Shown piece by piece: positions 25,981-53,100 of a stretch of 64,000 nt of DNA (positions within the stretch are counted from its first letter, which is position 1; each line of letters starts with the position of its first letter). The position numbers were made by a program, and so were the translations under genes. Where the stretch lies: contig NC_083508.1 of NCBI RefSeq assembly GCF_032362555.1, positions 5,919,001 through 5,983,000 on the forward strand, given 5' to 3'. This DNA comes from Amyelois transitella. Taxonomy: Eukaryota; Arthropoda; Insecta; Lepidoptera; Pyralidae. The notes beneath the pieces were generated by a model. The model was not told the DNA's origin, made no database searches, and saw nothing but the letters and a program-made list of their open reading frames with translations.

Positions 25981-26845
25981 CGGTGGAATAGTTTATGAAC
26001 GTCAAGATGACAGAGCCACCTCTCAAAACATAAATATTATCGAACCAGCCCTTAGTACCTGGTTTGTACCCGTTGGTACCTATATCAAAAAAGATTGTAC
26101 CCCAATGAATTCCAAAATATCGATTGTGATATGTGGTTCCTCCATTTTGACGTCAAAATGGAGGAACCACATATTTTTTAATTGCACAATGCTAATGTTA
26201 TGTTATTTAAACGAATTGTATGTAACTAAATTTATTTCAATAAGTTATAAATGATAGTTCTGATATTTAAATAAAATTATTTCTAATATTTAAATAAAAG
26301 TATCTCTAAGTCGACAAAATTTATTTGATGGGTTATTCTACACTTTGAATCCTCGTTTAATTTAATAACATAACATTAGCATTGTGCTTTTAAATAATTA
26401 ATAAATATAATTTTTTGTACTAAATCCTAAACGCCTAGAACTATTTTGAAATAAAATTTTCGTTTAATACATTTTGCTATAATTATTCACAGGCACTTCT
26501 GTCATTTTCTTTTTGTTAATTATTTTCTTACAAAACTGTTTTAAAAAACGATTATAGCGATAGCGATAAGATCTTGGGAGGTTCTAACCAGGTACTAAGT
26601 GTTCGTGTGGTCATCTTGACGGTATACATTATATTTTTATAAGAAACGAAGGTGGTTCCTCCATTTTGACGTCAAGATGGAGGAACCACATCACAATATT
26701 TTTGAATTCTTTGAGGAACAAACTTTTTTGATATAGGTACCAACAGGTACAAACGAGGTACTAAGGGTTGGTTCGACAGTATTTATGTTTTGCGAGGTGG
26801 CTCCGTCATCTTGACGTTCATAATAGTTTTGGCATAGCAGACGAG
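25981..26845. mobile_element. long foldback element
   Basis: The left arm (about 25981-26130) reappears reverse-complemented at about 26695-26840. It includes 'gaacgtcaagatgac', 'cataaata', 'cttagtacct' and 'ttggtacctatatcaaaaaa'. Inside each arm is a palindrome: 26131-26172, and 26652-26689 with one mismatch. A third inner inverted pair (about 26177-26210 with 26343-26375) shares 'acataacattagcattgtgc' in inverse. It has no coding capacity. This is a composite foldback or MITE-like element. Confidence 0.8.
26131..26172. repeat. 42-bp perfect palindrome centred on GACGTC
   Basis: Two 21-base halves ('atgtggttcctccattttgac' and its exact complement) meet with no spacer, centred on GACGTC. It lies in the left arm of the foldback element. 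Confidence 0.9.
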
Positions 26846-27834: not shown

Positions 27835-27975
27835 AATAAATACTTATATAGATAAACATCCAAGACCCAGGCCAATCGGAAAGTTCTTTTCTCATCATGC
27901 CCTGGCCGGGATTCGAACCCGGGACCTCCGGTGTCACAGACAAGCGTACTGCCGCTGCGCCACAGAGGCCGTTAG
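27835..27975 (-). mobile_element. SINE family A, truncated
   Basis: Minus-strand tRNA-like head ('gcctctgtggcgcagcgg', B box 'ggttcgaatcccgg') followed by only the first part of the body ('cctgggtcttggatgttta'). The 3' half is missing. Confidence 0.85.
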
Positions 27976-29238: not shown

Positions 29239-32200
29239 TTAACTCCATGTATCCGAGCAATATTTCTTGGTAGATTTTAGATTGTTAAGCAATTTGACGG
29301 CGTCTTGGTGTGATTTTCCTCCAATCTCCCTTATGCTCTTGAGGACGATATCTCTCACATTGACAGCCATATTATTAGCATCCCTGTGCATAAAAAATAT
29401 GTAAAGTTATTATACGCACACCTCGGACATACCTCGGAATCATATCGGCAATATTTTAATTAAAGTTTAGATGTGCAATTTACCAGAACTTGTTGATTCC
29501 AATCGTGGTTTCTTATAACAAAGAACAACCTCATTGTATGTTCCCAGTTTCACAAAAAGATGCTTCTAATAAAATTCCTTAGTTTATATACTTCGATCAA
29601 GTATAAAAATTAAATAAGTATTAAAAATATATCAAGTAGGTATATCTTTTTTCTTTTTAGTTTTTCGAAGGCTATATACGACAAAAATAAACCTACTCGC
29701 AAGGATCTGTTCTGTTATCTTTTGTTTTGCAGAGGGCAGGTGACAGTCGCTCTGAGTAAAAATTATCTCATAAAATAGTCAAGTGAGGTAGTATTGGAAC
29801 CAGGTTTTGAAGTACCACCACAAAGGATATAACCGGAAACAGATTAATGATGACTATAAAATGGAACTTACCCACACACATAAAAATGTCCATTTCGGTT
29901 GCCTAGAACATTCCAAATTTGCTCCAGATTTTGCTCAAGCAAGTGTGTCACGTATACTTTGTCAGCTTGATCCCGGGAGAACGCCAAGTTCAGTTTTAGG
30001 AGGCCACTTTTTTCATATTCTTCCAGCTCCTAAATATATTGAAATATCGTCATTTTAATTTTATTATTTTTAATTAACATTTACGAAATATATAAAAAAA
30101 AGAAATACTTACCTCCTGGTATATAAAATCTTGATGTCGATGCCTGCATCCAAAATAAAGAATAGTGTCACCGACTTCATTGCCGTTCCTCTGAGCGTGG
30201 GCCCTCTCTTGTAAAAATCCGCGGAAAGGTGCCAGCCCCGTCCCTGTACCCACCATGATAATAGGTGTTTGCATACTTTGTGGTAACCTGTAATTAAATA
30301 TTCAGATTAAAACTGCATTGGGATAATGTAGACGTAATTTTCCTCCTACCAAACAGACCTCCATCTTCTAAAGTGGATGTACTAAGTTTCGCCAGCCTAA
30401 GTTGGTTCTGTTTACACTAGACATGTGCTCTTCACAAGGTTGGATTACAGGGTTCTTACCTAAATTCTGATTTCCTTATGTAAATGGGTACGCGAGGCAA
30501 GGGCTCGCCCTTCTGCGGCTTGTTCCCCGCGAGCCAGGTGGTCGCAACTCCTTGTTTCACGCGGCCCGACTTGGTCTTATATTTTACAACCACCGCCGTC
30601 ACGTGAACTGATTCTGGGAACAACTGTTTATGTGTTTATAAACAAAGTCATATTATTTTAAAGATTGGATACGGTAACAGGAAAGAGTTTGCTCATAGTG
30701 TTTAGGAGCTGTTCTGAAATGGGTATTTCATTTATTTATATCCAATAACAGGTAAAAATTTTGACGGTTGCCAATTGCTAGGCAAGTCACGTTTTATTAA
30801 GATAAAACTAGTTACTAACTTTTGGACTAGAAGATATTGAATAATATCTTGGTTGAAGATGTGGCAATAAACTACATATGTGATTAAGAGGAGGCCTACA
30901 AGATTTAATGTCTTCCAAAATATGTACAATATTGGGACTTGCTTCTTCAACAAATGATTTGTACAATGTTTTGCCTTCTTTAGAGTTTGTTGCCATCAGT
31001 AACATTTTATTTTTGTCCTGAAAAAGAAAACAAATTACTTAGATCATATTAAGCTTTTTTAACATTGTTGTCAAGAAGTGTTTAAAGTACTGTTATTGAT
31101 AATTAAAAAAATTAATGGTTATGATTTATGGTCTATCCAATTTTGCCTATGATGATAGCGATTGTAAATAAAACTAAGTCAAGCAAATTTGTAACTTACA
31201 CTTTCATTGCTGCAATATTCAGCCAACTTCCTAATAACATCTGTAGAAGGTAATGCAGTGATTTCAATATAATGGGACAATGCCGTTCTGTACGAAGTTA
31301 TCTGATTGCCTTTGTTGGCTAAAGTGATCCCTTTACTGAGATCTGTATTTGTCAATTCTCCTAGGCGTTCAACCAATCTAGAGTTATTTTTAGGATACAC
31401 TGCCACATAGTCACCTGAAATAGAGAAAGAATTATATTGAATAGGCATTGCACCTTCATGCTTCTAATAGACAATATTCATTGTCACTTTTGGATTTAGA
31501 TTGTGTTGCAAAAGTTGTTTATAATCTTAGTTACCATAAATATCTTCGAATAAATGTTTACTTCCCTTTCACATTTTATTATATTTTTCTACTCAACCTT
31601 TTAAGCTGATCATTGTTAATTAAATTTATAATTTGGTTCTAGGAAAAAAAGTGGCATGAAATATAAATAAACTACAAAAACAAAACTGAACAGTCTTCTT
31701 ACATATCAAAATGTATATAAATAGTCTACTTTCTTTCCTGACTTCAAACTTTATACAAAATCAAAATAAAGGGAATACTAGAATTTCATCTTCCATCATC
31801 GTCTCGCACGAAATCCTTGTAGCTAAGGATGACAAACATACCAGCTTCATATTCCATTTTAGAATCAGATATATCAAACTCCACATGAAGACATGATCTA
31901 TTTCCACCTTTGTGTAATTCCTTGTTGGTAATTATTTGAGCTAAGAACGGATTGTTAGCATCAAAAGGTCTACAAAAGAAAATATACATAATGTTTTAGA
32001 TTAAATATAAAAGATCACAATGACAAGACTATTGTGTAAGTACCAACTGTCATCGGAAATGACCAAATCACTAGTAAAACATGGTTCAAAGTGGTGAGAT
32101 CATTAGGATATCACTGAGGTGATCACATGGTGTTCAAGTCAATCTATGTAGTCATTTGTTATTATCTCACTTATCTTCATGCAAGATTAACAAGATTTTT

Positions 32201-34400
32201 ATGATTGTACATAGATAACTTTTTGACAACTGGAATACATAGAAAAACTTATATAGAACAAATAGGATAGAATAAGCTAGCTCTAAAGGAACTTCAAGAC
32301 TGTGTGATACAAACTAAAATATCACATTTTATAACAAGCTAGCCCGCATAAGTAGTATGCCCTTAAATATCATGGAGATTGATTCAGTTGTTTAACTGTG
32401 AAAAGATAACAAACTAACTTTCAGTTATAATACGAGGTGTGTTCAAAAAGTATCGCGAATTTTGAATTTTCGCGGGTTACGTGTATTCGAATTTTGATCT
32501 TTTTGTGGTTTAATGTTAGTACTCATGTCTCTCACTTATGACGACAAGCTCGGCCATGTTCAATGTTCACTTAATTGTTGACAGCTGCTTTGCTTGCATG
32601 TGTTTTGGATCGTCTTTGATTTTTACCTATTAAAAAAAATGGATCAACAAATCTGTATCAAATTTTGTGTGAAAACGAAATTAAGTGCGCGGATGCATTC
32701 CGAATGTTGACTGTGGCATACAGAGAAGCTACCTTGGACCGAAGCAATGTTTATCAGTGGTACAAAATGTTCTCAGCAGGCCGAGAAGATGTGAACGACA
32801 AAGAGTGTGCCGGACGCCCGAGCACTTCAACTTCAACAACAGACGAATAAATTAATGAAGTGGAGAAAATGACATTGGCCAATCGTCGAATCACCATTAA
32901 GAGAAGTTGCTGGAAACATAAAGAAACCGCCAGAAACGCCCGGATTCGTGGAAGAACAAAAATTGGCTTTTGCACCACGATAACACCCCTGCTCACACAT
33001 TGTTGCTTGTGCGCGACTTTTTGGCCGAAAACAACACACTAATGATGCCGCAGCCACCGTATTCCCCAGATCTGGCCCCTGTGACTTTTTCTTGTTCCCT
33101 AAACTAAAAAACCCATGAAAGGACTACGTTATGCTATGCTTGATGAGATAAAATGGCATCGAAGGAGGAGCTGAAAAAGAAAAAAAAAATGATTTTTTGA
33201 AGTGCTCCTCACACACCTCGTATTAGAAATTCATTAACAGTTGTGTATATTTGGTTGTACTGAGTAAATTAAAAATTACTGGACCAATCTTAATGTTATT
33301 TAATACAAAGTGAGCCAAAACCTTCAGGACAGGCTACTTCTTTTGAGAAATTCACACAGAATTGAACAAGTAAGTTCAAGAAAGATTAAGTAACTTACAA
33401 TCTTTTTATTTGAATGTTATGCAACTTGGCTTTCCCATAACATATGTTGCCAAGCTTAGTGTTTTTGGGTACATGATTACTTTGTTGGAATTTGTATGAT
33501 GAATCTTTTTTGTTCAAATTTGGAATATGGAGTATCTCTGACCAGATTTTCTGTTTTAAACCTACAAAAATGTCTTTAACACTGTAAGAAAAATTACTGT
33601 AATTAAAAAAGACCTAAAGAAATGGACTGTGCTTTTAAACTATTAACAACAAAGAGAGTTAATAACAAAAATTTGTTTCCATTCAATTCAAACTCAGACC
33701 CTGTCAAAAGGTACAACAGGAATGTAATAAACCAATTGAAATTAATGCCTGTTTTCCCCAATGCATTAAAATTTTAAATGACAATGAAAAATATTTTTAA
33801 TGAACACCATATTAAACAAAAAAAGAAATCATAAGACTGTTTAGCATTGTATTAAAAATTAAGGTCTGATATAAGTAAGTTGTGTTTTATGTGTAAAGAA
33901 TAGGTACTTTTTAATTAAAATGTGTTAAATACAAAATATCCTTGGTCTTTAACCAGCAAGTCGTTAGTTTTTATTTTTCCTTTCAACCCCTCTTTGGATC
34001 ATCATTTTTTTTTGTGTTGCCTGAAAGGTTTATTTATACCAAGATGATAATAATACACTAAATGAAAAGTCAGTTACCTTGTGCAGTTTTTATCCCATGT
34101 TACACAAATTTGGCAAGCATCAATACAGGAATTGGAATGTTCATCATTGTGACAGTAATTATCATCATATGACCTTTTGTTGAAATAAAAAACCTGCAGA
34201 TATTATATGATATAAATTTGAATAAAGCATTGCTGTTGCTGTAAATATGTACTTGTTAAATGAATTTAGTTACCAAAGATCTATTTCCATACCTTATTTT
34301 CCAATTTACGTAATGGTGCTTCAATTCTTCTGTTTATAAGATTTGATAAGTAATGGGGTAAAGTCCTAATAATTGTACCCATATTTCGTGGTGCATCCAT
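29239..34400 (-). CDS. cytochrome P450 reductase-like protein lacking the FMN domain
   Basis: Ten exons, all open with GT-AG borders and consistent phases: 34293-34400, 34078-34193, 33399-33581, 31842-31969, 31200-31414, 30820-31017, 30460-30623, 30113-30287, 29872-30029 and 29239-29383 (529 residues). Exons 2-10 correspond one-to-one with exons 4-12 of the full reductase at 38.2-57.1 kb. Residues 180-529 are a complete FAD/NADPH module: RYYSISSS (307-314), GVATTWL (341-347), [10 protein letters not shown] (384-393), SRDQADKVYV (447-456), the catalytic Cys in VCGDA (481) and terminal DTWS (526-529). The FMN half is absent. Exon 1 gives a new basic start (MDAPRNMGTIIRTLPHYLSN). Exon 2 is a cysteine-rich, diverged relic of the last FMN exon. 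It would pass electrons from NADPH to FAD and then to an unknown acceptor. The ATG follows an in-frame stop, but a possible acceptor (aatttcag) six bases upstream leaves an earlier exon possible. Confidence 0.85.
32433..33220 (+). mobile_element. internally deleted mariner in the reductase-like intron
   Basis: Bounded by inverted ends 'cgaggtgtg' and 'cacacctcg', each next to TA, the mariner target. The plus strand encodes the transposase N-terminal part (VYQWYKMFSAGRED, AGRPSTSTS) and then drops to C-terminal pieces with stops. The catalytic centre is missing, so the element is dead. It sits in the intron between exons 3 and 4 of the short reductase gene, opposite to its transcription. Confidence 0.8.
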
Positions 34401-35080
34401 CCGAAACTGAAATTATCGGATTTCTAGCGAATCTACAAACCACTTTTATTAATAATTACATAATTATAATTAATAATTCCCACTCACAAAATTTATAACA
34501 AAAATGATGAAATGAAATAACCTCTAAAATGAAACTTATATAATGATTTTTATAATAAATATAAGAGAGAACATGAAAAAAAAATATTTCCTTATTACAG
34601 ATACTACCGTTTCTTTTTAGGAAATACAGAAACAAATGCTTATTTTAATGAACTGCCTTAAAATAAGCTTGAAACATCGTAGGTACGTTCATTTCTAATT
34701 AAACACCAATAATAATAATGTATACCTATGACTTAAGAGTCATCACAAAACCCAAAACATTCACTGACGTTTTGTTTTATATTTAAATGATAAAAAATGA
34801 TAATGTCATGATGCAATAAATAAATCGGGATACCAACATGGCGGAGTAGAGATGTTCACTTGTTCATTTAGTCTATAATATTTTATCGATGGATGAGTGA
34901 GTTAAGATTGTTCATTTCCGATCACATTGGTAACTATAAAGTTTAATACGAAAAAGTATTTGGAAATCAAATATAATTAATACCCTATGATTCAGATTAT
35001 GGCTAAACCGCTGGACCGTCTGTGATGAAATTTGGTGTGGATGTAGTTAAATATTCGAGTTAAAATTAAGTTTACTTTTA
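34401..35080 (-). promoter_or_regulatory. upstream region of the reductase-like gene
   Basis: AT-rich DNA preceding the short reductase gene. No reductase FMN-domain exon (no SQTGTAEEF-like, YGEGDPTD-like or GLGNKTY-like coding) is visible here or anywhere up to 38187. Promoter elements cannot be identified with confidence. Confidence 0.35.
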
Positions 35081-35081
35081 T

Positions 35082-35340
35082 GACGGCCTCTGAGGCGCAG
35101 CGGTAGTACGCTTGTCTGTGTCACCGGAGGTCCCGGGTTCGAATCCCGGCCAGGGCATGATGAGAAACAACTTTTTCTGATTGGCCTGGGTCTTGGATGT
35201 TTATCTATAAGTAAGTATTTATTATAAAATATAGTATCGTTGAGTTAGTATCTCGTAACACAAGTTTCGAACTTACTTCGAGGCTAACTCATTCAGTGTA
35301 ATTTGTCCCGTATATATTTATTTTTGTAAATAAATCAATC
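35082..35340 (+). mobile_element. SINE family A, full length
   Basis: Plus-strand copy with the tRNA-like head ('gcctctgaggcgcagcgg', B box 'gggttcgaatcccgg'), a body containing 'gcctgggtcttggatgttt' and 'gaggctaactcattc', and a T/A-rich tail. It is the most complete copy in the window. Confidence 0.9.
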
Positions 35341-35837
35341 ATCCAAAGGGCTCTAATTAGTGATGTACCGTGCTCGGGAACATTTCCAGGGACTGAAAAT
35401 TCTGCAGGAATCGCTGCCGGCAACGTTCCCAATATAGGATTTTACTGGGAATATTGATTAATTATTCTATTAATTTAAGTCAAACATATTATATTCACAT
35501 ATGTTTATATGCGCCTTGATACTTAAATCATAAATTATTCATTTTATATATAAAAATTCCGAAAATAATTATAATTTGCACAAAATGTTTGTCGGATGAC
35601 TCCGAAATTCACTTTTAAAGGGTTAAGAGAAAAATAATATCAATAATTAAGAGATAAATAATAGCAATTGTTCGTGTCTTCTTTGAAGTATTTATGTTCT
35701 TTTGAATCTTCGAGATTTTGTTTTGACTAAATTATATAAACTTTATAATAAGCGATTGCCAAAAGATTGTTGTAAAGTCGATTCTCTTTCGTGGCCTTTG
35801 AAGAGGCCTGTAGCGAGAGCGATGATGGATGATCGAC

Positions 35838-35905
35838 CGCCACCAAAGGGAAGATCTTATGCCAGGCAAATCTTATGCCTGGAGAACCGCGGCACACATG
35901 GATAT
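35838..35905 (+). repeat. short LINE-associated repeat
   Basis: Shares 'caccaaagggaagatc' and 'atgcctgg.gaaccgcgg' with 59393-59450 and in part with 60896-60945, where the sequence flanks a LINE fragment. Probably a retrotransposon relic. Confidence 0.5.
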
Positions 35906-36119
35906 GTTTTGTTCTTGGCCGAATATTTTCTATGCCAATCATTTATAGCCATTCCGTTTGCCAAGATTCGTTCCTTGGTAAACAAAAACGAGAAAAAATA
36001 CTTTAACATAACTTAGAACCTAATTTATGGAAAAGATTCTATGTTCGATACTACCCGTGTTTATGTTTTCGATGTGAATGAACTATTGAGAATATTACAA
36101 GGTTCTAAAGTTAGTTATG

Positions 36120-36355
36120 CAGGTGCCGTGTGGTTGTCGGCACCTATTCAAAAAAGAATAGGACCACTCCATCTCTTTCCCATGGATGTCGTAAAAGAGA
36201 ACTGAGGAATAGGCGTCTTAACTTAGCATCGCCTAAAATAAAAATCCCAAATTCAAAAGCTTATCCCTTAGTCTCCTCTTACGTCATCCACGGGAAATAG
36301 ATGGAGTGTTCCTGTTCTTTTTTATATTGGTGCCGGGAACCACACGACATGTAAG
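36120..36355. repeat. dispersed repeat D, foldback pair
   Basis: A minus-oriented 3' piece (36120-36210) is followed directly by a plus-oriented one (36240-36355). Both carry 'gtgccg...accacacg' and 'gagatggagtg' markers, giving an inverted arrangement. Non-coding. Confidence 0.65.
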
Positions 36356-36359
36356 TATG

Positions 36360-38187
36360 TAAGTAATAGGTTTTAAAACACATTTTTATAAATACACTTT
36401 GTGATGGACAATAATATAACGAAATATTAACCACTTACCAAAAGGTGAAAGGTTAGATTCGGCCTATTTTTACTCTGGCATAGGCTACAATATGCTATAG
36501 AACACTTCACCTTGTAGTTTATTTTCGATTAATATTAGCACAGCTTTGTACAAAGTCGAAAATCACGGGAAAACGTAAAAACATCACGATGACACCTTTC
36601 TACATGTAAACAAAGTGGTAAAGTTCAATGGCGTCAGCGGAAGCAAAGTACATCGAAGCCAATGAAGAGGGTGCTGAAAAAAAGCCTCTACGTTTTTTCG
36701 CCTGCGAAACCACTGTTGTGAGAAAGAGACAGATATATCATTTTTATTTCTGAGTCAGTTGAACAATTACGGCATTTCTATATGATTTGTTATTATTATT
36801 ACGTCCATGTGATTTGATGTCACCTCCACTCTTTCACTGTCACATCTCGTGTTTTCAAAGAAATAGTTTACCGTCGTCTTGTGTTGTGTTGTATATCATA
36901 AATTATCTTTTAATTATTGCCAGTGTAACTAATCACTGTAGATTTCATGGAAAGCGACATAAAAAAAACTCATTGCGTCCAGAAATTCAGGAAAAATCTG
37001 CCGCAACGTCTTTCAAAGTTTATGCAGTTTTTTGAAAGCTAATCTACTATTTTATTAATCATTGGGGTTGGCAACGATAGCACTAAAATGGGGGTTGAAA
37101 GTTTGTATGAACTTGTCTATAATAGGTCTGGATAAATGCAATTTACACAGATTACGCAAAAAGCGACCTTCACGCGAGCGAAGCCGTGGTCAACAGCTAA
37201 TTATAAATATGTACAAATAAATAAGTAAGTAGGAACCATTTGGCAAACCTACCACGCTTGAGGATGCCACTCTGCCATAACCTTCGATCCATTGTTATGG
37301 GAAATAGGAAGTACGGAAAATATGGAAATCCGCCTTATTTTCAGAAAAAAGGCCGTTTACTCCTGAAGGTCTATTCCATCTCTCTGCCAAATTTTGACAA
37401 AGTAAAACAAATATACAAATCTTTTCTCTAAATGATATAAGTACCTATGTAGGTAATACGGGTAGTAAGTAGGTACCTAACATGAGTTGTTCTGAAAGTA
37501 TTTTACGGAAATAAGGAATATGGTCAATGAATGTATAAAGAAAAAGAACATTTATTCCATAAAATTTCTATGTTTAAAATTATGCAAAATATACATAAAT
37601 ATATTTATTGTATAATATTTCTTAAAATCTATTGCCCAGTCCACTTAATATACACATTTACCAACAATTATTTGTTAGTGCACTTAATGCACAACCATCG
37701 TTAGAATTCAAAAGATTCAACAATTCTGTAACAACTTTTTATTTAGACGAGAGTCTTTACACGTAGAAAAATTGAAACGATCCTGAATGCGACTTTGTGA
37801 TTGACTACATTTCTTTTTAGTTAGGTTTTTCAATTCAAAACAATAAATAAGTAGTTTATCTTATATGATAAGTACTTTACTTACTAGCTCTGTGAGAGAT
37901 GGGTACATTCATTTTATTTCACAAGTTTCAATAGGTGAATGTCGGTACAACTAAAACGAACTAAATAACAAACGCTTAAATAATAGAAATCATTTGTTCA
38001 AGACCTGAAAAAATTGTGGCGGTGCACAAAAGTCAATTTTCCTTGTCCTCTGTTATCAGAGTGTACTTTATATCACAATATTACGTACTTATTATAAGTA
38101 TATAAATTTACCTACCAACTTAAAAGCAGGCTTGCAGACAATTCAACTATTAAAAAATATTAAATGTTTATGTAGGGTACAATTATT
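36360..38187 (-). other. 3' flank of CPR and intergenic DNA
   Basis: Holds candidate poly(A) signals for CPR on the minus strand (tttatt at 37604-37609 and 37551-37556). A 40-codon plus frame from 36629 starts MASAEAKYIEANEEGAEKK, with no known match. There is a repeat C-like piece near 37080-37200. No supported gene. Confidence 0.4.
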
Positions 38188-41100
38188 TTAACTCCATACA
38201 TCTGATGAATATTTCTTCATGGAATCCAGTTTCTTGAGGAATTGCGCCGCTTCGGACTCAGATTTTCCTCCTATCTCCTTAACAGCTTTTTGCACGATGT
38301 TTCGCACATCCACAGCCATATTTTTTGCATCACTGGGTAAAAAAAAGTAAAATATAGATTTTCTTCTCATCGTCTATTGAATAAATGGATATATATTGAA
38401 TAATTAAAGTATAACATAAAAAGGCCTTTACATAGGTCAAAACCCAATGAACTTTTTGATGATATTGGGTTAAGCAAGCTAGTAACATATATAAAATTAA
38501 AGTCAATGAAAAGACGTACATTAAAAAGGAAAATTTATATAGGATAAGAAGATAGTTTCACTAATTGAACTATGCTGATTTGAAGCTTACTTACCCACAC
38601 ACATAAAAGTGTCCATTTCTATTGCCAAGAACTTCCCATATTTGTTCCAGATTCTTCTCTAGCAAATGAGTCACGTATACTTTGTGCCCTTGGTCTCGGG
38701 AGAACGCCAAGTTGAGTTTCAGAAGGCCACTCTTTTCGTATGCTTCCAGCTCCTAAGGTATTAAAATAATTGAATTACAGCAATTGCAGCTACAATGCCA
38801 ATGTTAAATACCTTTTGTTGAATATTAGGTAAGTAATTATTACATTTCGATAAAAATAATAGAAAAATTCACAATTGGCCGAAAATAAAAGTTTTAGAAA
38901 GCTTGACCGATAGACATCGACACCATTCTGAAGTTATTTGGATTTTTACCTCTTTGTAAATGTAATCCTGTTCCCGGTGCCTACATCCGAAGTATAGAAT
39001 GGTATCTCCCACTTCCTTGCCGTTGGACTTCGCGTGCGCCCTTTCTTGCAAGAAGCCCCGGAACGGAGCCAACCCCGTACCCGGCCCCACCATCATAATA
39101 GGCGTTTGGGGTTGTAACGGTAATCTAAAACAAATAATAAATTTTTATTTAACTTTGTTCTCAATAATCTTTCTAAATAACCTGAAATAACATTTGAATT
39201 GATTGCAACGGTATTTTCATTATCCAATACATATTTTATTTATTTATTTATTTATTTATTAATGGAAGTCTTACAGTCTAATTTATATGATATATAAGTA
39301 ATAATAATATAATGCGATTGCTAATTACAAGACTTCACAAGTAGAATTGCAACCATGGAAAGATTTACACAAAAACTGCGTCATAACACATGTACATAGA
39401 TAAATGTATAAACGAACATATAGTAAAAGAACAGATAAAATAAATACTTATTAAATATCATTAAAAAAGGATCCACTCAGTAAACAACTAACTGTTTTTT
39501 TACTACTGTGGAACAGGTCGAGCCGTTGGGATCATATATTGAAGTGCTTAGCAGCACGTACAGAGAAGGAGTTCTGTCTATATTTAGTCCTACTAAATGG
39601 AACGCGAAGTAGCGGTCGTTGTCTATAATGAAATAAATCAGTTCTAAGTTGAATTTTGGAGATGAGCTCCGGGCAGTCCACTGAGCCTTTAGCTATTCCA
39701 ATCAAGAAACCGACATCATTGATTACACGTCTGATTTCAAGTGGAAGGAAGTGATAACGCCTACATCTTTGTTCATAACTGTGTGAACTAGTTCGGGCCT
39801 TGTAGTCCAAGTATCTCAAAAATTTCTTTTGGATACCCTCAATGCGATCTTTATAGGCGTTAAATTGAGGGTTCCACACCTGCGAGGCATATTCGAGGTG
39901 ACTTCGGACAAAAGAACAATATAGCACTTTAATACATTTAATATCATGAAAGACTGAACAGACTCTCATAATAAATCCAAGTGCTTTAGATGCTTTAGAC
40001 ACTATATAATCCACGTGTTCGTCAAACAGTAATTTGCTATCGAATTTTACACCTAAGTCGGTAATAGCATTGACTTTTGTAATTTTAGTATTATTTATTA
40101 TTTAATATATGACCAATATCTAAAATTGTTGACTTCCTAGTGAATGAGATATAAAAACATTTTGATATGTTAAGGTCCAATTTATTTTCTTTACAAAAAA
40201 TCTCAAACCGATTGAGATCTTCCTGTAGTTTATATATATCCTCAATATTATTTATAACTTTAAATACTTTCATATCATCAGCATAAAGTAATACTTTTGC
40301 GTTCAGGAAGCACTTTCCAACATCGTTTATGAAAATGACGAATAAGAGAGGACCTAACAGTGAACCCTGAGGGGATCGCTAACCATTTGGACATGTAGCC
40401 TTGGAGAACCACCGCTTGAGAACGATTGTCAATATATGACATAAACCACCGAAGTAAATCTCCGTGGATACCGGCAAGAGATAATTTATTGATAAGCAAA
40501 TCATGATCAATCCTATCAAAACATTTGCTGTAGTCCCTCAGTGATAAAATTAGTGGCTAGCAGAAGTTTTGACGTAGTTGACCGTTGCCTCAAAAATTAC
40601 TAAAGTACAAATTTTATGAAGTAAACCTAATACTTTGATTACAAAAGAAAGAGAGGAGTAAATGGAAAAGTTTGTACCTACTTAAATATTTCACTGAGTG
40701 GGATCAATATTCATAGCAGATGGAAAGTGTGATTTTTATTCTTCTTCTACCTTCTGATGTTAGCCGATTACATCCTTAGCTCTCTGGAAGCCCGAGGTGT
40801 GGCTTTGACCACGTTACTGACTTTGGAAAATCCATGCAGTCAGTTGAATACGGACTTATTATCAAACTGATATTAAAAAGAAAATAAATATATTACCAAT
40901 AAAAATAAAATATATTTTTTATAAATACCTAAACTGTGACTTGCGGATGTAGACGGGTATCCTAGGCAGAGTCTTGCCCTCCTCCGGCTTAAGATCAGCG
41001 AGCCACGTGGTTGTAACTCCCTTGTTGATGCGGCCCGTGGTCGTTTTGTACTTTACCACCACTGCGGTCACGTGCACAGTTTCAGGATGTAACTACAGGA

Positions 41101-44100
41101 GGAATACAAATTCTTTTTAAAGGATTATTAAAGGACAAGGTGACTAAGCCACGTTTTGCTGTTTCTCAGTAATTATACATAATAGAGATAAAAACTATCT
41201 TATCTTTTAAGTTTACCAAAATTACAGATAGATACATAAAAAACATAGAAGATAAGCACATATTAGCAGTTTGTTTTTTTGTAAGGTTCATCAAAACTAA
41301 ACTGCAAAAAAAAAATGTTTTGTGCACATCGGCACACACCTACCTATCAATAGATTAGCACATACATTCATACATACATATAGTCCCTTTCGTGGTAGAC
41401 AGAGCCAACAGTCTTGAAGAGACTGATAGGCCACGTTCAGCTGTTTGGCTTTATAATAGAATTGAGATTCAAGTAGTGATAGGTTGCTCGCCAAAAGAAG
41501 TAACTATCCCAAGTTTATAAGCCTATCACTTAGTCGCTCTTAAACGACATCTATAAGAAAGAGATGGATTAGTCCTATTATTTTTTCTTTTGGTGGAACC
41601 ACACGACACAACAGATTAGAGCGAAACATTTTTACGTAGCTGGACATAGGTATTTAGCTAAAGTACATACTTATCTACTTATGTATTCTGCCATTTTATT
41701 GATAACTAATACATTTTATAAATACTCGTATCATAAAATAGAGTCTAGATAATTGGGTATTTAAATAAATAAATATATACGGGACAAATTACACTGATTG
41801 AGTTAGCCTCGAAGTAAGTTCTAGACTTGTGTTACGAGATACTAACTGAACGATACTATATTTTATAATAAATACTTATATAGATAAACATCCAAGACCC
41901 AGGCCAATCAGAAAATGTTCTTTACGCTTGTCTGTGACACCGGAGGTCCCGGGTTCGAATCCCGGCCAGGGCATGATGAGAAAAGAACTTTTTCTGATTG
42001 TCATAAAATATAGTATCGTTGAGTTAGTATCTTGTAACACAAGTCTCGAACTTACTTCGAGGCTAACTCAATCTTTTTTTTTAAATATAAAAAATAAAAA
42101 TAAAAAAAAACTTGGGATTCTTTTTAAGGCGATGGGCAGCAACTTGTCACTATTTGAACCTCAATTCTATCATTAAGCCAAATAGCTGAACGTGGCAATT
42201 CAGTCTTTTCAAGACTGTTGGCTCTGTCTACCCCTCAAGGAATATAGACGTGATTATGTTGATATGATGATGGTAGGTATGTTGTTTTACTTCAACACAT
42301 TTTATTGAACGAACGATTATTAGTGATTTTTATAGATTAGATACTGCCCTATCGGAGTTGAATATTTAAACGGATATATTTTGATTGCTTTTGCACCTCT
42401 TATTATTTATATATGTTAAATTGAAACTAATTATAAGCCGTACAAAAACATACTATTCACTTTCTAATAATATTATAATAGGTACTAGCTGTGCCCGTAA
42501 CTTCGTCCGCAACTTGGTCCCCGTTTTTTTCACATTTTCCATTATTTCTTTGCTCCTTATAGTTGCAGCGTGATGTTATATAGCCCAAAGCCTTCTTCGA
42601 TAAATGGTCTATTCAACGCAAAAAAAAAATTCAATTCGAACCAGTAGTTCCTAAGATTAGCGCGTTCAAACAAATAAACTCTTCAGCTTTATAATATTAG
42701 TATAGATAAACAGAGCCGTATATCCATACATATAATAAATATAATAATTAATTATTTATAGCTTTTTATATTGATTCAATAATGACGAAGTTCCATACAA
42801 ACTTGCACCCCCTATTTCATCCCCTTGGGATAGAATTTCAGGATAAAAGTAGCCTACATTCTAATCCAGGTTACTAACTATATCTGTGCCGAATTTCGTT
42901 CAGATCCGTTCGGTAGATTTTGCGTGATGCGCGTACAAACATACAAACAGACAAAAATTCTAAAAAAAATTGTTTTATCTTCTACTGACCCTAAAAAGAC
43001 CCCTTTTAATTTTTTTTCTTAAATATCTTCAATGTTCAGACAAAGTTCAGTAACAGTTTTATTATATGTATGGATAGAGGCTGCATTCCAGCCGTTGTCT
43101 TCTAAGCCCGATATCCACTGAACTCTGAACTGCATGTAGATATGGCGGGAGCAGTCTCATACTTTATTGTGGGAGTGTGATTGTAAGACTAGCTTTTACC
43201 CGTTGCTTCGCTCTCATAGAAATTTTCAGAAATATTTGTATGTTACTCCACTTTACTTTTCTAGTCACGTCGTCTGCCAAATCTGCAATCTTCTCGACCC
43301 CCCTATAATTTCGTTGTGGATAAAACAACAAGCCTGTATTTTCAGTAACTAATCAGGCATTATATAAATACGGTATATTTAACATTTAAGTCAATTTGAA
43401 CCAGTAGTTTAAGAATGACTACTTGTTAAAGTTTCTGAATTTTATCCCTCACTGACTGACTGACTCACCGATCATCAAAAGTCTTAGGCACTTCTAGTAG
43501 ACATAGAAGCTTCAAATTAAGAATACAAATAGAGTTTAGTGTCTTACGAGTAATCATGGGAAAACCATACATACTAATAATCAAATAATGCGATGTCCAA
43601 GTCGATCTATTTTTTTAAAACATAAAATATTTTAAATATTGGCATGATAATAACTTATGTAATAACTTAAGGCAGAAGGTCCTTTAAGTAGAGACTAAAT
43701 AGATTAACCGACTTGGTATTACATCGATCTCACTACTTTTTACGGTAGAAAGACTGAACTGCGAGACTTGGGTTTTTTTACAGGATATTATGACGGCATT
43801 TCTTTAAACGCAAATTTTTAAGGTTATTCCTAAGGTAGTATTGACATACGTAGTTAGTTAAGGTAGTAGAAAAAAAAACGGATTTGTGCAAACAATCACG
43901 TTTTCAATTGACTAAATGTTATGCATAACAAGGTCATTAGAAATTTTTTTTCAAATCCTTACCCACAACTAGACACTTGCTATAGAAATTTTATTTCCCA
44001 GGCGCACTATTATTTAATTTATACTTTGAACCAGAGTAATGTACCATCTATACTAATATTATAAAGCAGAAGAGTTTGTTTGTTTGAACGCGCTAATCTC

Positions 44101-47100
44101 AGGAACTACTGGTTCGAATTGCAAAATTCTTTTTGTGTTTAGTAGACCGTTATTTTGTGTTGAATAGAACATTTGTCGAGGAAGACTTTAGGCTATTTAT
44201 CATCACGCTGTAACTATTAGGAGTGAAGAAATAATGGAAAATGTAAAAAAAAAGGGGGAAAATTATTCCTCCTTGAGGGCTTCAATGATGCCCAAAATAA
44301 CTATTCCACGCGGACGAAGTTGCGGGCACAGCTAGTTATGTTTAATTACCTTAGGGCTTGAAGAGATAGAATAGTATCTTGGTTGCAGACGAGGCAGCAA
44401 TTCGCAAACATGGTCCAGTGGGGGTTTACAAGATTTGATGTCCTCGAGAATATGCACGATGTTCCTGCAAGCATCTACGACAAACGACTGATAGAGTGCC
44501 TTCCCTTCTTGAGAGTTTGTCGCCATCAGCATCATCTTCTTTTTATCCTGCAATAAGCATATATTTATTAGTGTAGTATGTAGATAACACAAACTTAAAT
44601 TTTAAAATGACATTGTGAAAGCGAGCAGCGACGGCTTATGGAATTTTACTAAATTATCAGTTGAAAATATTGAATACTAAAAAATATTGCATGCCTGAAG
44701 GGGCAAACTGTTGAATGCTAAATGTATTTCCATCTACATGTCTACACAGTTATGCAATTAATATTTTGAGTTTGAGTTTGAGATCACATTATAAGTTCCT
44801 TACATATGAAATTGGCGTTTGGTACAGGAGGAACAAAAAGTCGAATATTTTTTTAATATAATAGATATATTTATTTGATCAAAGTAAGAACCATTATTAT
44901 CTTTGCACTTTTGCCATCAAATACGAGTAGGTAGTTGATCCCTTTACTAAAAAAAATCCATTTGGACGGAAATCAATAAAATCTTTGAAGGCGGTTTGTA
45001 CTGCCCTATCGGAGTTGAATTTTTTCCTTGGAAGAAAATATCCAAATTTCAAAAAAAAAATATAATCTGTTGGAGTAAGTTCCGGGGAGTACGGTGGATG
45101 TCTTTGACATTCCAATTGAAGCTCCTCTAATTTGGTAGCCATCTGTTGTGCAGTGTGGTCTAGCGTTGTCGTGAAGCAGCAGTGGCGTGGAGCGATTGAC
45201 CAGCCGCGGTTGTTTAGCAGCTAGCTTTTCTATCATAGTTTGCAATTGCTGACAATAGACGTCTGCCGTAATCGTCTGGCCAGATTTGAGAAAACTGTAA
45301 TAGGAGACACCGGCACTAGTCCACTAAACGCTTACAAGTAACTTTGTTTAGGTCAATTTTCACTTGGGGCAGGATTTGGCTGGCTGGCCAGGGTCCAGCC
45401 ATTGCGATGGTGTTTCTGATTATCGTAGAGAATCCACTTTTAATCAAAGGTAATGATTTGATATAAAAACCTTTATGGTAACGTAATGGTAATTGTAATG
45501 CAACCTTTCAAGTTTTTTAATCTTCCCACTTTGCTTCAAGTGGATTAAAATAACTAGGGTCTCCGGTCGTCCAAGGCTTGTTCTGCAGGTCGAAATTACC
45601 AGAATAAAAACGTAAGAACCCAAAACGCACTGTGTTTTCTTTTGCGACACAACCGTCATACACAGCAATAACCCTTCGAGCCGTTTCCTCAGCACTGGGG
45701 CCACGGTGAAACTCGTACTCGTAAATCCGCGATATTTCAAGTTTTCCATTTTGTAAACCGAGTGACGCCAACAGAAAAAATTTAAGGAAAGAAACAAATG
45801 AATGAAGGTTAATACAATTAAATACATGTGTGTAAATCCTACTACTATTATAAACTACTATTATAATCTAGTAACTGTATAAATTTGAATTTGGAATTCC
45901 CAAACAAACGGGAGAAATTTATGATTAAACTAGAGGCCGCCCGCGACTTCGTCCGCATGGAAACCCTATCAATCCCGCGGGAACTCTGGGATAAAAAGTA
46001 GCCTATGTGTTATTCTGGGTCTTCAGCTACATACATACCAAATTTCATGGTAATCGGTTCAGTAGTTTTTGCGTGAAAGAGTAACAAACATCCATACATC
46101 CATACAAACTTTCGCCTTTATAATAGTAGTAGGAAGTAGGATTACAAGAAAACGCCAATTTCACATGTAAGGAACTAATACTTCTACGAGTATACCTATG
46201 TCTGAACGGTATGGTTTTTGGCTATATAGAACTACTCTATCTCTTTCTGTACGACGGTATGCAAAGTCACTTGCTGCCTTTAGCGATGCACTTGAGCACT
46301 TAGCTTAGAAACCTACGACTGAGATATACATACATAAAAAATCGACTTCCCTATTTGTTTATATGTTTACACTTATTTTATAGCATGATGAAACACAATG
46401 TATGTCTCATACCAACCTGTTATCAGTTTATCGCTCACGTAGTAACACTTATCCGATTCATATTGTTAATTGTTATACTTACTATTTTTTTTTATTCATG
46501 TTTCTAGAATCTACTTAATTACTGTTCATTTAACGAAATGAAATTACTCTTTATACGGAAATTAGTAAGTATTTTAATTCCAATCAATGTACTCCCGCGT
46601 TTAAACATATTATTTCAGAACAATTGACGACGCAGTTCCGCATATACGACATAATATTTACATGAATAAGCATATCTAATGTACAGTCTTCAACAATTCA
46701 GATACTTTGTTAAGCACTTACCTGCAATTTGCCAGTGCAATTTAATACACTGTAAATAATTGTGTTGACATACATACACCTTGCTTTACTGAATTTATTT
46801 TTAGATCAGCAGTAAATTACTTGGTATCTTGATGGAAAAAGAAGAAATGCCACTCAGGTTAGGTATGTGTCTAAGTTAAAGGTAGCTAGCTCTCTTGAAT
46901 TCCTAAAACATCTAAAAGCCTGGCAATGTTAACTGTAGATTTGGCTTAGTAGATTAATAATATAATAAAAAATTATTGTTCTGTAAGGGACCTAGAAGAT
47001 TTATATTTTGATGAAAATCCCAGTTTAATAATTGCTCCAAGACGAAGTTAAGTAATGATTATCGTGTTTACGAAAAAGTTGTAATATGGGTCGCGGAATT

Positions 47101-50100
47101 TAAAAACAGGAACGAGTGCATTCGTTCTGAATACCCTCAATACTTTATTTTCTTTGTACACTAAAATTCAGTGAATGCAGGTCATCAGAGAATGAATTAT
47201 TCCAGCGTTATATAATTTTGACGGTTATTTCACATAATGTACATCCATTAATTGCCACATTATGTTGCCAACACTGTACTTACATATCGCTTTTGTATTG
47301 GATACTTATAATAAACATTGTGTTGGTGCTCTCAGGCACCGAGGCTCTTTATTTTATTACGATTTTACTTAGAGAGACACCTAATATTGATTTACCTAAT
47401 AAACTAATAATAACTAAGCGAAATCTCAAGCCGCAACTGTGAATATAATTTTTCAGACGTAGGTAGTGCATGTTTTAAGTTGGTATTGTTAGTACGTACC
47501 TATATCGATGTGCTTCTTAAGTATCAGAAAAATTACTCAACCATCAGATTTTATATACTTATAAATACTTACTTCCTCATCCGAGCAGTATTCGGCGAGT
47601 TCCCTTACAATGTGCGTGCGCGGCAACGCAGTAATCTCTATGTAGTGCGTGAGCGCAGTTCGGTAAGTCGTAGGACAGGGGAACGGATGCTTTTTGCTGC
47701 TCTCTTGGTCGTTGTTGATAAGAGAGAACACAGTACTGAGGTCTGTGTTGGTCAGTTCTCCAAGACGGTCTACTAGATCCGTGTCGTTCACTGGATACAC
47801 TCCCACATGGTCGCCTGCGTAACAAAAAATATAAATATGAATTACATTTATTTGTTTGTTGTTAATGATACCTCAACAATTTTTTTTGCACTAATGCGAC
47901 TGAAGACTCCTTAGATAGTTGGTCATTATTGATAAATCGTGAGTCTATAATCAATTTCCAACTAAAGTTATGAACTATTTATCAACGACTGGATTATCAA
48001 AGACTGCAAAAGAAGAGTTAGATGGGCTTTCAGGTTATACATAATACATACCAGCTTCGTATCGCATTTTAGAGTTTGAAATATCCAATTCCACGTGAAG
48101 ACAAGATCTGTCTCCGCCCTTGTGCATCTCTTTATTGACGACAATTTGTGCCAGGAATGGATTCTTCGCATCGAATGGCCTATAATACAATGAATTAACT
48201 AATATCAATCACCAAATTAGATTTGCTGACATCTAGAAAGTTATAACACTCTTTCAGGATAAGTTAATTAAGTATTTCTTATGTATACTACTATTATAAA
48301 TCTGAAGAGTTTGTTTGTTTGAACGTGCTAATCTCAGGAACTACTGGTTCGAATTGAATTATTTTTGTGTTGAATAGAACATCTGTCGAGGAAGGCTTTA
48401 AGCTATATAACATCACGCTGCAACGATGAGGAGCGAAGAAATAATGGAAAATGTGAAAATACTAGGTATTTCCTAGTATTTAAAAATAATTCTTTTAAAT
48501 ACTAGGTATTTCCTAGTATTTTTAAAAGAATTATTTTTAAATACTAGGTATTTCATTTTGTATTAAGGATAATATTTTGGTTCTAATGTTTGTAATTAAT
48601 GTAGATAATTAATTTCAAATCAAATTTCTTTGCAATAACGTTATCGATGCAATAGTTTTTACTGGTCCCTCAGATCTAAGCAAACATACAAACTGTTATC
48701 TTCTCGAGTTGTATAGGTATGATCATGGTCAATCCACTAAGAAACCGTTGCAAAGAGAATCCCCCACTGATTTAGTTCTTGGTGTCTAAATTATTGACTA
48801 GTAGGTTACATATATACCTGTTGATTGATGGTATAAGTCACAGAACTTTTCTACATACATTTTAATACGTAATTAATTTAAAAGATTAAATTAATCATAC
48901 TTACGGCCTCTGTAATTGCAAGGTATTTAACCTGGCAATTTCGCCAGTGAAGATATTTTCAGGGATCTCATCACACTCGTACGTGACCAAACTAAACTGC
49001 CGCGTCAGGTCTTCTTCGCCAGAACTCTGAATATCATATTTCTCGCACACCGCAGGCCAGAATTTATCTTTCCATGTGATGAAGTCATCTTCAATGCTAG
49101 AATATTAAAATTCTAATTATTCTTGTTAACCAACGTCGACTCAGTAATCCAGTCTAGTCAATGATGACTTCGGGCATTGATAAGTTCAGAACAATTTAAA
49201 TATTTAATTCTTATAACTATGTATATTTAATTTAAAAATCTACTTATTTATCTATAGTGCACCTTAGTACATTGATTTTATACAAATTGCTTCCTATTAC
49301 AGTTAAATATTTACATACATACATACATAAAATCACGCCTCTTTCCCGGAGGGGTAGGCAGAGACTACCTCTACTATAATTTAATCTTTTACTAGTTAAA
49401 TATTTGTTTATCATATTTATGTTAATTGCGTTATAAAAAACCTAACTTATTTAAATTAAGGATTTATAGCGTGAGAATAATAAACACTTCAACAAATTAC
49501 TTTGCATCGTCATCTCCTAATCCCAACTCGTAGACCCTCGTCGCACCCAGCTCCTCCAGACGTTTATCCAAATAAATGGCCACTTCGTTGTAATGCTCGT
49601 ACGTCTTGTTGCCGAGACCAAATACCTATGAATAGTTAAGTATTATTATATATTCATATACTTACAAAGGTTATTAATATGCTTACATTACGAGGCTTTA
49701 TAAGTCAGCATTTAACGTTAAAACGTTCGCACTACCATCGTTTTAACCAATAGACAAAATCAACATTAGCCAAGCGCAGAGATAACATCTTTATAAACAG
49801 ACCCTAAGATACCTTACCTTCGATTAAGTATAAAGACAGATTTTGTTTCAGGTTTGTATAGAACTGGGTAACTATCTAGCTTGTATACTTGTTTATATAA
49901 GTTCCCTATAAAACAAAAAAATGTAGGTAAGTACATATGGTAAAGTCGAGTTGTTTTTTAATTGAAATCTCGACTTTAATTTGAAAAATCTATATGTATA
50001 GTGTTTTGCTTTTAAAACATTTTATTTTTTTTGGGCATATGCGCATATTTCTCTACTACATCACATATAATAATATACATATATGATATCACAGCTATCT

Positions 50101-53100
50101 ATAGGTACTCTTATAAAAATAATTGTAAACTTTGGCCATTTATTTAAATTATTGTACAAAGTACAGACGACATTAGCAATGATCATAACAATCTGTAACA
50201 AAACAATAATATCTAATTCAAGTAGAATTAATCAGCCGGGTAACCTAAATGTATCACTCAAGTGATTGTGCTTTGAACCATTAACGACATTTATCGCTTC
50301 TCCAAATCATCATAAAACAAGTTGCCCTCCGCCTCTTACTGTTTACTAAGCTTTCATCTGAATTAACCACACAATGTGTCCTAAATTTATTATTAACTAG
50401 CTGTTGGCCGCGGCTTTGCTCGCGGACCTTATTGCCCTACCTAAACAGTCATTATCCTGAATGAAAGGTGACTTAAGGGGCTTTGGATAAATTTTGTCCG
50501 CAAATTTTTACGCCCAATGACCCGTTTTTCCGCTCCCGTGGGAATTTCGGGAAATCTAAGAAACAACATACATACATACTTTCATAAAATCACGCCACTT
50601 TCCCGGAGAGGTAGGCAGAGACCACATCTTTCCACTTGCAACGGTTCCTGCGTACTTCTTTCGCTTCATTCACATTCATAACTCTCTTCATACAGGCACG
50701 TCGGTTTCGGGTACTCTTGACTTGACCTTTTGCCAGAACTTCTCCTTTTAATTCTGTCTTATACTACTCTGTTATCTACATAGCCTAGTTATGTAATTTA
50801 ATTTATTTTAATCTTTAACCTAAAGATACTTACTGCGTAGTTTAAACCAGTCAAATCAGGATCTCCATTTTTCAACCATTCATAGAATTCCATCGCATTA
50901 TCTGTAGGATCACCTTCTCCATATGTTGCCATACAAAATACGGCTAATGAATTGGGTATGTCTGGTAGTTTCGTGAGTTCTTCCTAAAAGATAAAGAAAA
51001 TATTATTTGTTATCTACTCTAAACATGTCCGCATTAGATTACCGCGACTATTATCACAAGTTCTTTACAAACCATATCACATTCTTCGGGGTCGGCGACC
51101 ATGCCCTTCATTTTGTATCTTGCTCCCTCTTTGGCAAGGCGACCGGCAAACTCTTCTGCGGTACCAGTTTGAGAGCCATAGAAAACTACTAAACTTCTAC
51201 GGGACGTTTGCAACTTTTTTATGAATGAATTTTCGGTCACTTGTATTGATGCTGCTGTTCTGAAAAAAGTAAATTAACTTTCAACTTTAAATATATCTTT
51301 ATTATTAATATGGCATTTCCAAGCAACCTGAGCTTAAGAAAATCTTTTGAAATATACATAATGGTTCTTTTTTACGCTCTAGCTTGTGGAGGTCGTGAAG
51401 GTTGTTTTTTATTGCGGGTGTTTCAGCAGGTATGCAAACCTAGCTACGCACCAATTGAACAGAGAGATGTGAGATGAAGAGACTGGGTTTTTGGTTATTG
51501 AGGTAATGTATCATAACGTAATCATGTTTTAAACAATTACCATAAATTTCAGCTTGTTGGGAATGAATAGCTTTACTGTTATTATTTGGTCTTACTTAAC
51601 CGGACTATTAGGTATAGTTGTAGATATTTTTTATTTGCAATTATAAAATAGCTAGGTACAGTAGATAATAGAGTTATTAAGTGATTCGTTATTTGATGTG
51701 TGTCCGAATCGAACTCCATGCATAACTCTAAACTGACTATTTACATGAGTCGCACTTATCGGCCCTTGGTTCCGAGAGAGTAAAAAAATAACATCAACAC
51801 CGTACTTATATAATTTACCTATATAATTTAAAAAGAGTTTATGTATAGTAATATGTGACTCCCCGTATTGAAATGCTTGGAGGCAGATAGGTAGGTGCCT
51901 CTAGAAAAGGCGAACATATGAAGGAAATCACCGCAAGTTAACAAAATAGAGACTACAGTAGTCTAGGTATGTACCTAAAGTCTCTATACTCTTCCTTCAA
52001 TGCATAAATCTTTATCTGTTACATCTACATTCATTTATTACTACTTCTTATACTTACTTAAATATAGATGTTAACACAACAACTCAGTTGATATAACCTT
52101 GAAACACGTCGAGAAATACAGTGTAATGTAATAAGGTAAGTAGGCATAATAATGTTGTCAAATAATATTTTTGAATAAAACCTTGAACTTTCTCAACTAT
52201 GAGAAGGGCGTCTCAATTACCAAAGAGCTACATTTATATTTTTTTAAATACAAATATACTTATGTGTAGGTTACAAACTTTTGATGATTGACCTCTGTCT
52301 GGGATGTTTACCTATTTATCACTTCTATCCCTATCCCTACTTATATTATAAATTCGAAAGTAACTCTCTATGTCTGTCTGTTACGCTTTCATTCCTTAAC
52401 CACTGAACCGAGTTTGATAATATTTAGCACAAAGACAAAACCTTTAGGAGTAACTAAGATAGGCATTGGCTTTTTTCTAAAAATTCATTGCCTACCTATG
52501 CCGATGCCACGCGGTATACCTAGCTAGTTTTCAAAAAAAAAAGTGCAAGTTGGTTAGTGTTCAAACTAATGTACAAAACTTCGGAAATAGACCTACCACA
52601 GGACATCCGGGTTTAATGAAAGACGTAAGTAAGTAGGTACAATAATAATAATGTAAGGTCAACTTAAATATTCAAGGTAAAGAGAAAATTTTGGCTGTAC
52701 TCTACTATCCTGTGTTATTACCTACTAGCTGCTGTCCGCGACTTCGTCCGCGTAAATTTCGAGTTGAATTTTGTTCATATCAATGATCATATCAAAAATC
52801 TCTCCGTTTCAGTCAAAATACTAAATGTACAGGCAAACTATTTTTACCGTTTTATTATATGTAGTACTTTGATTTTCAGTTTTTTTTAATAAAATACTCA
52901 AACAACACAAAAAAAAATATTTTTAATAAAAAAAATATCTTGTTTTTATTGGGGCTCGAACTTGGATCGCCAATTTCAGTCTCACGCGCCAACCACTGGT
53001 CCATCGAAGCCGTTGCGGTGGTGTCGAAATTAGACTACGTACATACATATGGTCACGTCTATATCCCTTGCGGGGTAGACAGAGCCAACAGGCTTGAAAA

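Follow-up and report, generated by a model that had tools for sequence, protein, structure and literature searches.

A tandem paralogue of P450 reductase in Amyelois transitella without a recognizable FMN domain and with an apparently constrained FAD/NADPH module

The window (the whole stretch of DNA analysed, 64,000 nucleotides) holds a P450 reductase (CPR) gene and, downstream of it on the same strand, a second, related gene whose ten exons run from 34400 to 29239 on the minus strand (Table 1). The coding sequence of this paralogue comprises 1590 nt, corresponding to 529 amino acids and a stop codon. Reconstruction of the splice sites and phases confirmed the ten-exon, 529-codon model of the initial annotation, all nine introns having GT-AG borders and consistent phases. 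The 5′ part may allow some variation: M7 of exon a, where position -3 is A and position +4 is G, has a stronger start context than M1, and an in-frame alternative acceptor for exon c is possible 15 nt upstream, with 33596 as first base. No candidate for the membrane-anchor exon of CPR emerged when the minus strand was scanned between 64000 and 51260.

Table 1. Exons of the CPR paralogue and position of the neighbouring CPR gene in the window.
Feature	Position	Strand	Length (nt)	Protein identity to CPR (%)	Description
Exon a	34293..34400	-	108		Start codon M1; 36 aa; in-frame stop 5′ of the ATG; donor GTATGG
Exon b	34078..34193	-	116		39 codons, 5 Cys; begins VF like CPR FMN exon R
Exon c	33399..33581	-	183		Diverged homologue of CPR exon c (FMN domain end and hinge)
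Exon d	31842..31969	-	128	81	FAD module start
Exon e	31200..31414	-	215	64	FAD/connecting domain; 9 codons shorter than in CPR (242 nt)
Exon f	30820..31017	-	198	79	FAD motif RYYSISSS including catalytic Ser310
Exon g	30460..30623	-	164	69	FAD motif GVATTW
Exon h	30113..30287	-	175	81	NADPH loop [12 protein letters not shown] ([15 protein letters not shown])
Exon i	29872..30029	-	158	91	NADPH residues SR..K.Y, catalytic Cys481; synonymous divergence lower
Exon j	29239..29383	-	145	60	Catalytic Asp526, Trp528, stop
Neighbouring CPR	38188..51258	-			Exons P (FMN P-loop) to j; start of exon P approximate

Gene structure and sequence both indicate that the paralogue descends from CPR. Exons d, f, g, h, i and j are, as first noted, equal in length in the two genes (128, 198, 164, 175, 158 and 145 nt), and the identity of 60-80% estimated by eye for the shared exons was about right, the measured values being 60-91% per exon. 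Together with the adjoining CPR and the shared phases, these results support the proposed tandem duplicate. Nitric oxide synthase, methionine synthase reductase and other diflavin genes were ruled out, the closest match in the genome being the adjacent CPR, and a chance chain of open reading frames was ruled out for exons d-j by the exon lengths, the phases and 75% identity to CPR. In the module encoded by these seven exons, 293 of 393 residues equal those of CPR, even though the two genes disagree at 74 of 126 four-fold sites; the latter corresponds to ~1.15 substitutions per site (Jukes-Cantor), and the duplication is therefore old, with no date being claimed. Exon i has a lower synonymous divergence from CPR than the rest and may have been homogenised with CPR by an old gene conversion; without it, 245 of 340 module residues are identical.

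Searches against Pfam assigned PF00667 (FAD_binding_1, 2.5e-64) and PF00175 (NAD_binding_1, 1.1e-17) to the 529-residue protein, with no match to Flavodoxin_1, and residues 1-136 matched no Pfam family even at an E-value of 10. The flavodoxin-like FMN domain required of a CPR is thus missing from the predicted product. A genome search with PF00258 gave eight matches, and the three located in the window all fall in CPR exons. The initial annotation had pointed out that an FMN-coding exon set spliced to the paralogue from upstream would make it a normal CPR; no credible FMN exon was found between the paralogue and the CPR stop codon, where a sensitive tblastn search of 34401-38187 with the FMN part of CPR (exons P to c, without the anchor) gave nothing below an E-value of 7.5. 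The claim that the FMN domain has been lost holds in that no FMN-binding domain was found, but the FMN half has not disappeared by a clean deletion. Exon c descends, with much divergence, from the 192-nt CPR exon encoding the FMN domain end and hinge (tblastn E-value 0.009; none of 2000 shuffles reaches the alignment score), and the FMN half has therefore been eroded or replaced. Exon b has the entry and exit phases of CPR FMN exon R and shows marginal similarity to the CPR FMN exon, its alignment score being reached by 57 of 2000 shuffles. For exon a, no relationship to CPR exon Q was detectable, the alignment score lying under the shuffle mean. Residues 1-136 contain no hydrophobic anchor (best 19-residue mean hydropathy 0.6), though a further exon may lie upstream. 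When mitochondrial-targeting features were examined, 226 of 5000 shuffles equalled the helical moment of the sequence starting at M1, and 689 of 5000 that of the sequence starting at M7.

The FAD/NADPH half, on the other hand, is complete as far as its core motifs are concerned. The catalytic Ser, Cys and Asp and the terminal Trp (S457, C630, D675 and W677 in rat numbering) are intact, as are R454, Y456, S596, R597, K602 and Y604, all of which we take to be functional residues. At rat R424 and R634 the paralogue has other residues, as does the CPR of the same species. What was originally described as intact NADPH and FAD motifs needs one refinement, in that the NADPH loop reads GTGTG in place of GPGTG, Thr replacing the Pro found at this position (P533 in rat) in rat, in CPR and in 78 of 80 bacterial sequences, these being the best 80 of 270 sequences related to the exon i peptide. 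A conserved Asp and a conserved Val, judged by the same set, are also changed, and rat H319, a His in CPR, is Tyr. The four catalytic residues are also those named for an insect CPR in PMC6696589. No insect relative was found in the viral and bacterial collections searched: none of the 80 sequences just mentioned carries an insect title, and other searches of these collections gave no relative at all. Overall, the NADPH/FAD half is complete and probably still working.

The constraint is sharply different between the two halves of the paralogue. Relative to CPR, the module has a dN of 0.16-0.17 and a dS ranging from 1.3 (LWL85) to 2.4 (ML), being undefined by NG86, whereas exons a-c have a dN of 0.65-0.95, a dS of 0.77-2.28 and a dN/dS of ~0.3 to 1.2 depending on method. 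In the module, 74 columns are conserved from bacteria to rat, of which the paralogue keeps 67 and CPR 68. Only three of the 68 columns kept by CPR are changed in the paralogue, compared to 97 of the other 325 (Fisher p 1.3e-6). With rat CPR as outgroup, paralogue-specific and CPR-specific changes number 34:18 over the whole module and 33:17 if exon i is left out, the module thus evolving somewhat faster in the paralogue (p 0.036); the corresponding counts are 22:3 for exon c alone and 42:4 for exons a-c together, where the alignment of a and b is unreliable. Neutral simulations starting from CPR gave a mean of 5.4 stops at 0.1 substitutions per site, with one stop-free run in 400, and at 0.2 substitutions per site and above none of 400 runs was stop-free. 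The proposal of a complete FAD/NADPH module is accordingly borne out by the Pfam domains, the intact residues, the conserved columns and these simulations, and the module looks constrained, as judged on the paralogue branch from one genome.

These rates also bear on whether the paralogue is a duplicate in decay or with no role, either a gene that worked over most of its existence and is at present disappearing, or one that is transcribed to no purpose. The far-diverged exons a-c with their method-dependent dN/dS, the replacement of H319 and of the conserved Pro, Asp and Val, and a GC3 of 0.36, below the 0.50 of CPR, would all agree with decay. However, none of the marks of a pseudogene was observed: the gene is not an intronless copy, and the seven module exons contain no stop, frameshift or broken splice site and retain the catalytic residues checked. 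Because the module has stayed open at near-saturated synonymous divergence, as seen in one genome, we regard decay as unlikely.

Gene structure and sequence comparison make it reasonably likely that an old tandem CPR duplicate has been kept as a soluble FAD-only NADPH reductase, in which FAD passes its electrons on to a small carrier. The second gene would have arisen when CPR was duplicated in tandem in this lepidopteran lineage, and its 5′ half, with the FMN P-loop, the ring loops for FMN and probably also the membrane anchor, would have been lost or replaced, while the NADPH/FAD/connecting module was held under purifying selection. The product would be a soluble FAD-only NADPH dehydrogenase (diaphorase), in which NADPH donates a hydride to FAD and the electrons then exit directly from the FAD. 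With the P450-donating part lost and the NADPH/FAD half kept, a different electron acceptor may therefore be served, most likely a small one-electron carrier resembling ferredoxin or cytochrome b5, and the paralogue alone would not be expected to reduce P450s. The FAD domain of CPR is thought to have descended from a ferredoxin reductase, and the paralogue would be working like this supposed ancestor. The replaced Pro of GPGTG, the changed Asp, Val and H319, the faster evolution of the module and the possible homogenisation of exon i speak against this reading, as does the single CPR copy reported for S. litura.

A bolder version, which we offer tentatively and consider rather doubtful, is an animal CPR in which the ancient fusion of flavodoxin and reductase has been undone, leaving a free-standing NADPH-FAD reductase with a non-P450 partner of its own. 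The FMN half would here be replaced by a short Cys-rich N-terminus that targets the protein elsewhere or, most boldly, holds a metal cluster in place of FMN. The Cys-rich character refers to the five Cys among the 39 codons of exon b, and bacterial FeS-FAD relatives may do likewise with a metal cluster.

An improbable alternative is that the paralogue helps CPR, as an extra NADPH dehydrogenase that supplies electrons in trans to an FMN domain, either that of CPR or that of some other diflavin enzyme. The 75% identity to the FAD module of CPR would suit such a role, and FAD-FMN transfer between distinct molecules is one diflavin scheme, described as possible for BM3 in PMC3509625; however, there is no anchor-like segment to bring the paralogue to CPR, and nine residues are missing in exon e. 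Least probable, and to our minds quite improbable, is that exons d-j serve as an alternative 3′ module, the anchor and FMN exons of CPR sometimes being spliced past the CPR FAD exons to give a full-length CPR isoform that carries a second FAD module, with exons a-c as leftovers. The paralogue does lie downstream of CPR on the same strand, and the phase of the c-d junction is identical in both copies, so that a CPR-to-paralogue splice would be in frame. Against this, exons a-c have retained a start codon, their splice sites and an open frame of ~135 codons, for which neutral sequence of the same composition gives P ~5e-5, a value that makes the case look too strong because the exons were picked as open. 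CPR also has its own stop codon and downstream AATAAA motifs, although such motifs are common by chance in AT-rich DNA.

Insect microsomal P450s are usually regarded as depending on CPR as a single and indispensable donor of electrons. If the paralogue is indeed a soluble FAD-only reductase, Lepidoptera would possess an unrecognised electron-transfer branch, in which another NADPH module, sharing its origin with that of CPR, has a different outlet, and RNAi or expression work directed at the shared 3′ half of CPR could be confounded. It would also be a natural case in which a diflavin enzyme has gone back to being a reductase with one flavin. No description of an FMN-less or second CPR was found in the open literature searched. 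For S. litura, a single CPR copy is reported in PMC6696589, which cites a 2017 paper and database sequences, and the paralogue may therefore be absent or unannotated there.

Compared to CPR (the neighbouring gene and rat CPR, PDB 4yaf and 1amo), the paralogue shares the exon lengths and phases of the neighbouring gene, FAD_binding_1 and NAD_binding_1 and the catalytic residues checked, and differs in that neither an FMN-binding domain nor an anchor-like segment was found, and in having an N-terminus of its own with Cys residues, GTGTG for GPGTG and the shortened exon e. Like the cyanobacterial type of ferredoxin-NADP+ reductase (PetH), it combines FAD and NADPH binding in the absence of an FMN domain. 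The match to NF045929 is weak (1.2e-24), and the paralogue is a descendant of CPR, scoring 86.9 bits against a family cut-off of 600, with CPR itself no closer at 85.1 bits. Bacterial FMN-less CysJ-like proteins have the same two Pfam domains without Flavodoxin_1, as observed in all of the eight shortest of 80 bacterial ORFs, the eight having been scanned because of their shortness. Four of these eight carry an N-terminal PF04060 FeS domain, the C-x2-C-x3-C-x17-C spacing of which is not present in the N-terminal Cys of the paralogue. Finally, the isolated FAD/NADPH domains of CPR and P450 BM3 consist of the same module alone and, according to PMC3509625, reduce ferricyanide, an activity that FMN-depleted diflavin enzymes also keep while transferring electrons to cytochrome c at a very low rate or not at all; those domains, however, were made by separate expression or proteolysis, whereas the paralogue is a natural gene.

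The paralogue of NADPH-cytochrome P450 reductase (CPR) lies downstream of the CPR gene on the same strand, and the ten exons, GT-AG borders and 529 codons proposed for it in the initial annotation were confirmed by the gene model, in which all nine introns are GT-AG. Six exon lengths (128, 198, 164, 175, 158, and 145) are exactly those of CPR, as had been claimed, while exon e is 27 nt shorter than its CPR counterpart. Pfam places FAD_binding_1 at residues 137-346 and NAD_binding_1 at 382-492, with no Pfam match in residues 1-136; together with the gene model, this bears out the observation of a tandem CPR paralogue that is FMN-less and FAD/NADPH-complete. The window belongs to an assembly of 327 Mb in 33 contigs, over which the genome searches were run; its mitochondrial contig carries the tRNA order Met-Ile-Gln ahead of ND2, an order typical of Lepidoptera and in agreement with the initial annotation. 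At least 20 exon-wise matches to the paralogue's FAD/NADPH module (exons d-j) comprised the paralogue once, CPR, and more distant genes on contigs C4, C7, and C22. On C4, two adjacent diflavin-type loci about 30 kb apart (G000:C4:10008879-10043656) are perhaps two putative nitric oxide synthase genes.

Features of the locus (positions within the window)
Feature	Position	Strand	Remark
CPR, exons P to j	51.26-38.19 kb, approximate	minus	excluding the anchor exon (not located)
Paralogue	34400 to 29239	minus	downstream of CPR
Exon i segment, paralogue	29866-30033
Exon i segment, CPR	38589-38756
Mariner-like transposase remnant	32440-33230	plus	frames broken; in the large paralogue intron c-d; identified by eye
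Non-LTR element, fragments of reverse-transcriptase-like ORFs	39532-40556	minus	in a CPR intron; identified by eye
tRNA-like repeat	27898-27969	minus	called by ARAGORN (tRNA-His) and Rfam (tRNA)
tRNA-like repeat	about 35076-35176	plus
tRNA-like repeat	41923-41992	plus
Inverted repeat	25993-26120 / 26696-26823		128 nt, 91% complementary, spacing 575 nt

Only one copy of the tRNA-like repeat was called as a tRNA, and since the sequence belongs to a dispersed repeat with three copies in the window, it is probably a tRNA-derived SINE, not a tRNA gene. The inverted repeat is perhaps a foldback or MITE element.

The completeness claimed for the FAD/NADPH module was upheld by both Pfam domains and by deeply conserved columns (n=74; at least 90% conserved among the best 80 of 270 bacterial relatives of the exon i peptide, with the same residue in rat), of which the paralogue keeps 67 and CPR 68. 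Three of the 68 columns kept by CPR are changed in the paralogue (Pro of GPGTG to Thr, Asp to Asn, and Val to Thr), compared with 97 of 325 other columns. The two modules share 293 of 393 residues, with differences at 74 of 126 four-fold sites, a dN of 0.16-0.17 and a dS of 1.3-2.4 or undefined, depending on the method. When neutral decay was simulated from CPR, stops arose at a divergence far below that of the silent sites. With rat CPR as outgroup, 34 changes in the module were paralogue-specific and 18 CPR-specific (p 0.036). Exon i contains the most similar DNA of both genes (86% over 168 nt), and 16 of its 47 same-residue codons differ synonymously, against 135 of 243 in the remaining module exons; this reduced synonymous divergence suggests that exon i may have undergone an old gene conversion with CPR. 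Without exon i, identity is 245/340 and the specific changes are 33 and 17.

In exons a-c (118 codons aligned), dN is 0.65-0.95 and dS 0.77-2.28, and 42 changes are paralogue-specific versus 4 CPR-specific (p 5e-9; exon c alone, 22 versus 3), a ratio different from that of the module (p 0.003). The reported loss of the FMN domain holds in that no flavodoxin was found: Flavodoxin_1 gave eight matches in the whole genome, and the three inside the window are all CPR exons. FMN-coding exons upstream of the paralogue, named in the initial annotation as a refuting case, were not recovered, the FMN part of CPR as a sensitive tblastn query giving nothing credible from the paralogue up to the CPR stop codon. 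A simple deletion of the FMN half did not hold, since exon c aligns with the CPR exon for the FMN-domain end and hinge (score reached in 0/2000 shuffles), exon b aligns marginally, in identical phases, with the preceding FMN exon (57/2000), and exon a does not align (1816/2000). The FMN-binding residues of rat CPR are, a few chance matches aside, missing or altered in the aligned paralogue, the alignment being unreliable in exons a-b.

The best reading, which we hold with moderate confidence, is a retained gene with the predicted function of a FAD-only NADPH reductase. Isolated FAD domains of CPR and P450 BM3 support ferricyanide reduction, whereas electron transfer from FMN-depleted diflavin enzymes to the BM3 heme domain or to cytochrome c is very low or absent (PMC3509625); on this basis the protein, which keeps the module but lacks an FMN site, would act as an NADPH diaphorase, with electrons leaving FAD for an acceptor that is not P450. 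The predicted protein shows no hydrophobic segment and is thus probably soluble. Its first 136 residues carry a net charge of +10 and could contain a targeting signal. Of the 39 codons of exon b, five encode cysteine; given the composition of the window this has a chance of 0.006, for a feature chosen post hoc.

Searches of an open-access library brought up no description of an FMN-less, duplicated or second CPR, as judged from titles and abstract beginnings. The passage on S. litura in PMC6696589 gives a single CPR copy, resting on a 2017 paper and database sequences, and is silent on whether the DNA downstream of CPR had been looked at. The two CPR transcripts described for a fly (PMC4683403) are a different matter from the paralogue. 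Among the 80 bacterial relatives, nine ORFs were scanned for domains, the eight shortest and one control with an FMN P-loop-like pattern. Flavodoxin was present in the control, whereas all eight have the same two domains as the paralogue and no flavodoxin. Four of them (CysJ-like ORFs L089, L025, L032, and L068) carry an FeS domain (PF04060) ahead of the module, with a cysteine spacing unlike that of the paralogue N-terminus. As these eight ORFs have both domains without flavodoxin, the FMN-less FAD/NADPH architecture exists in nature.
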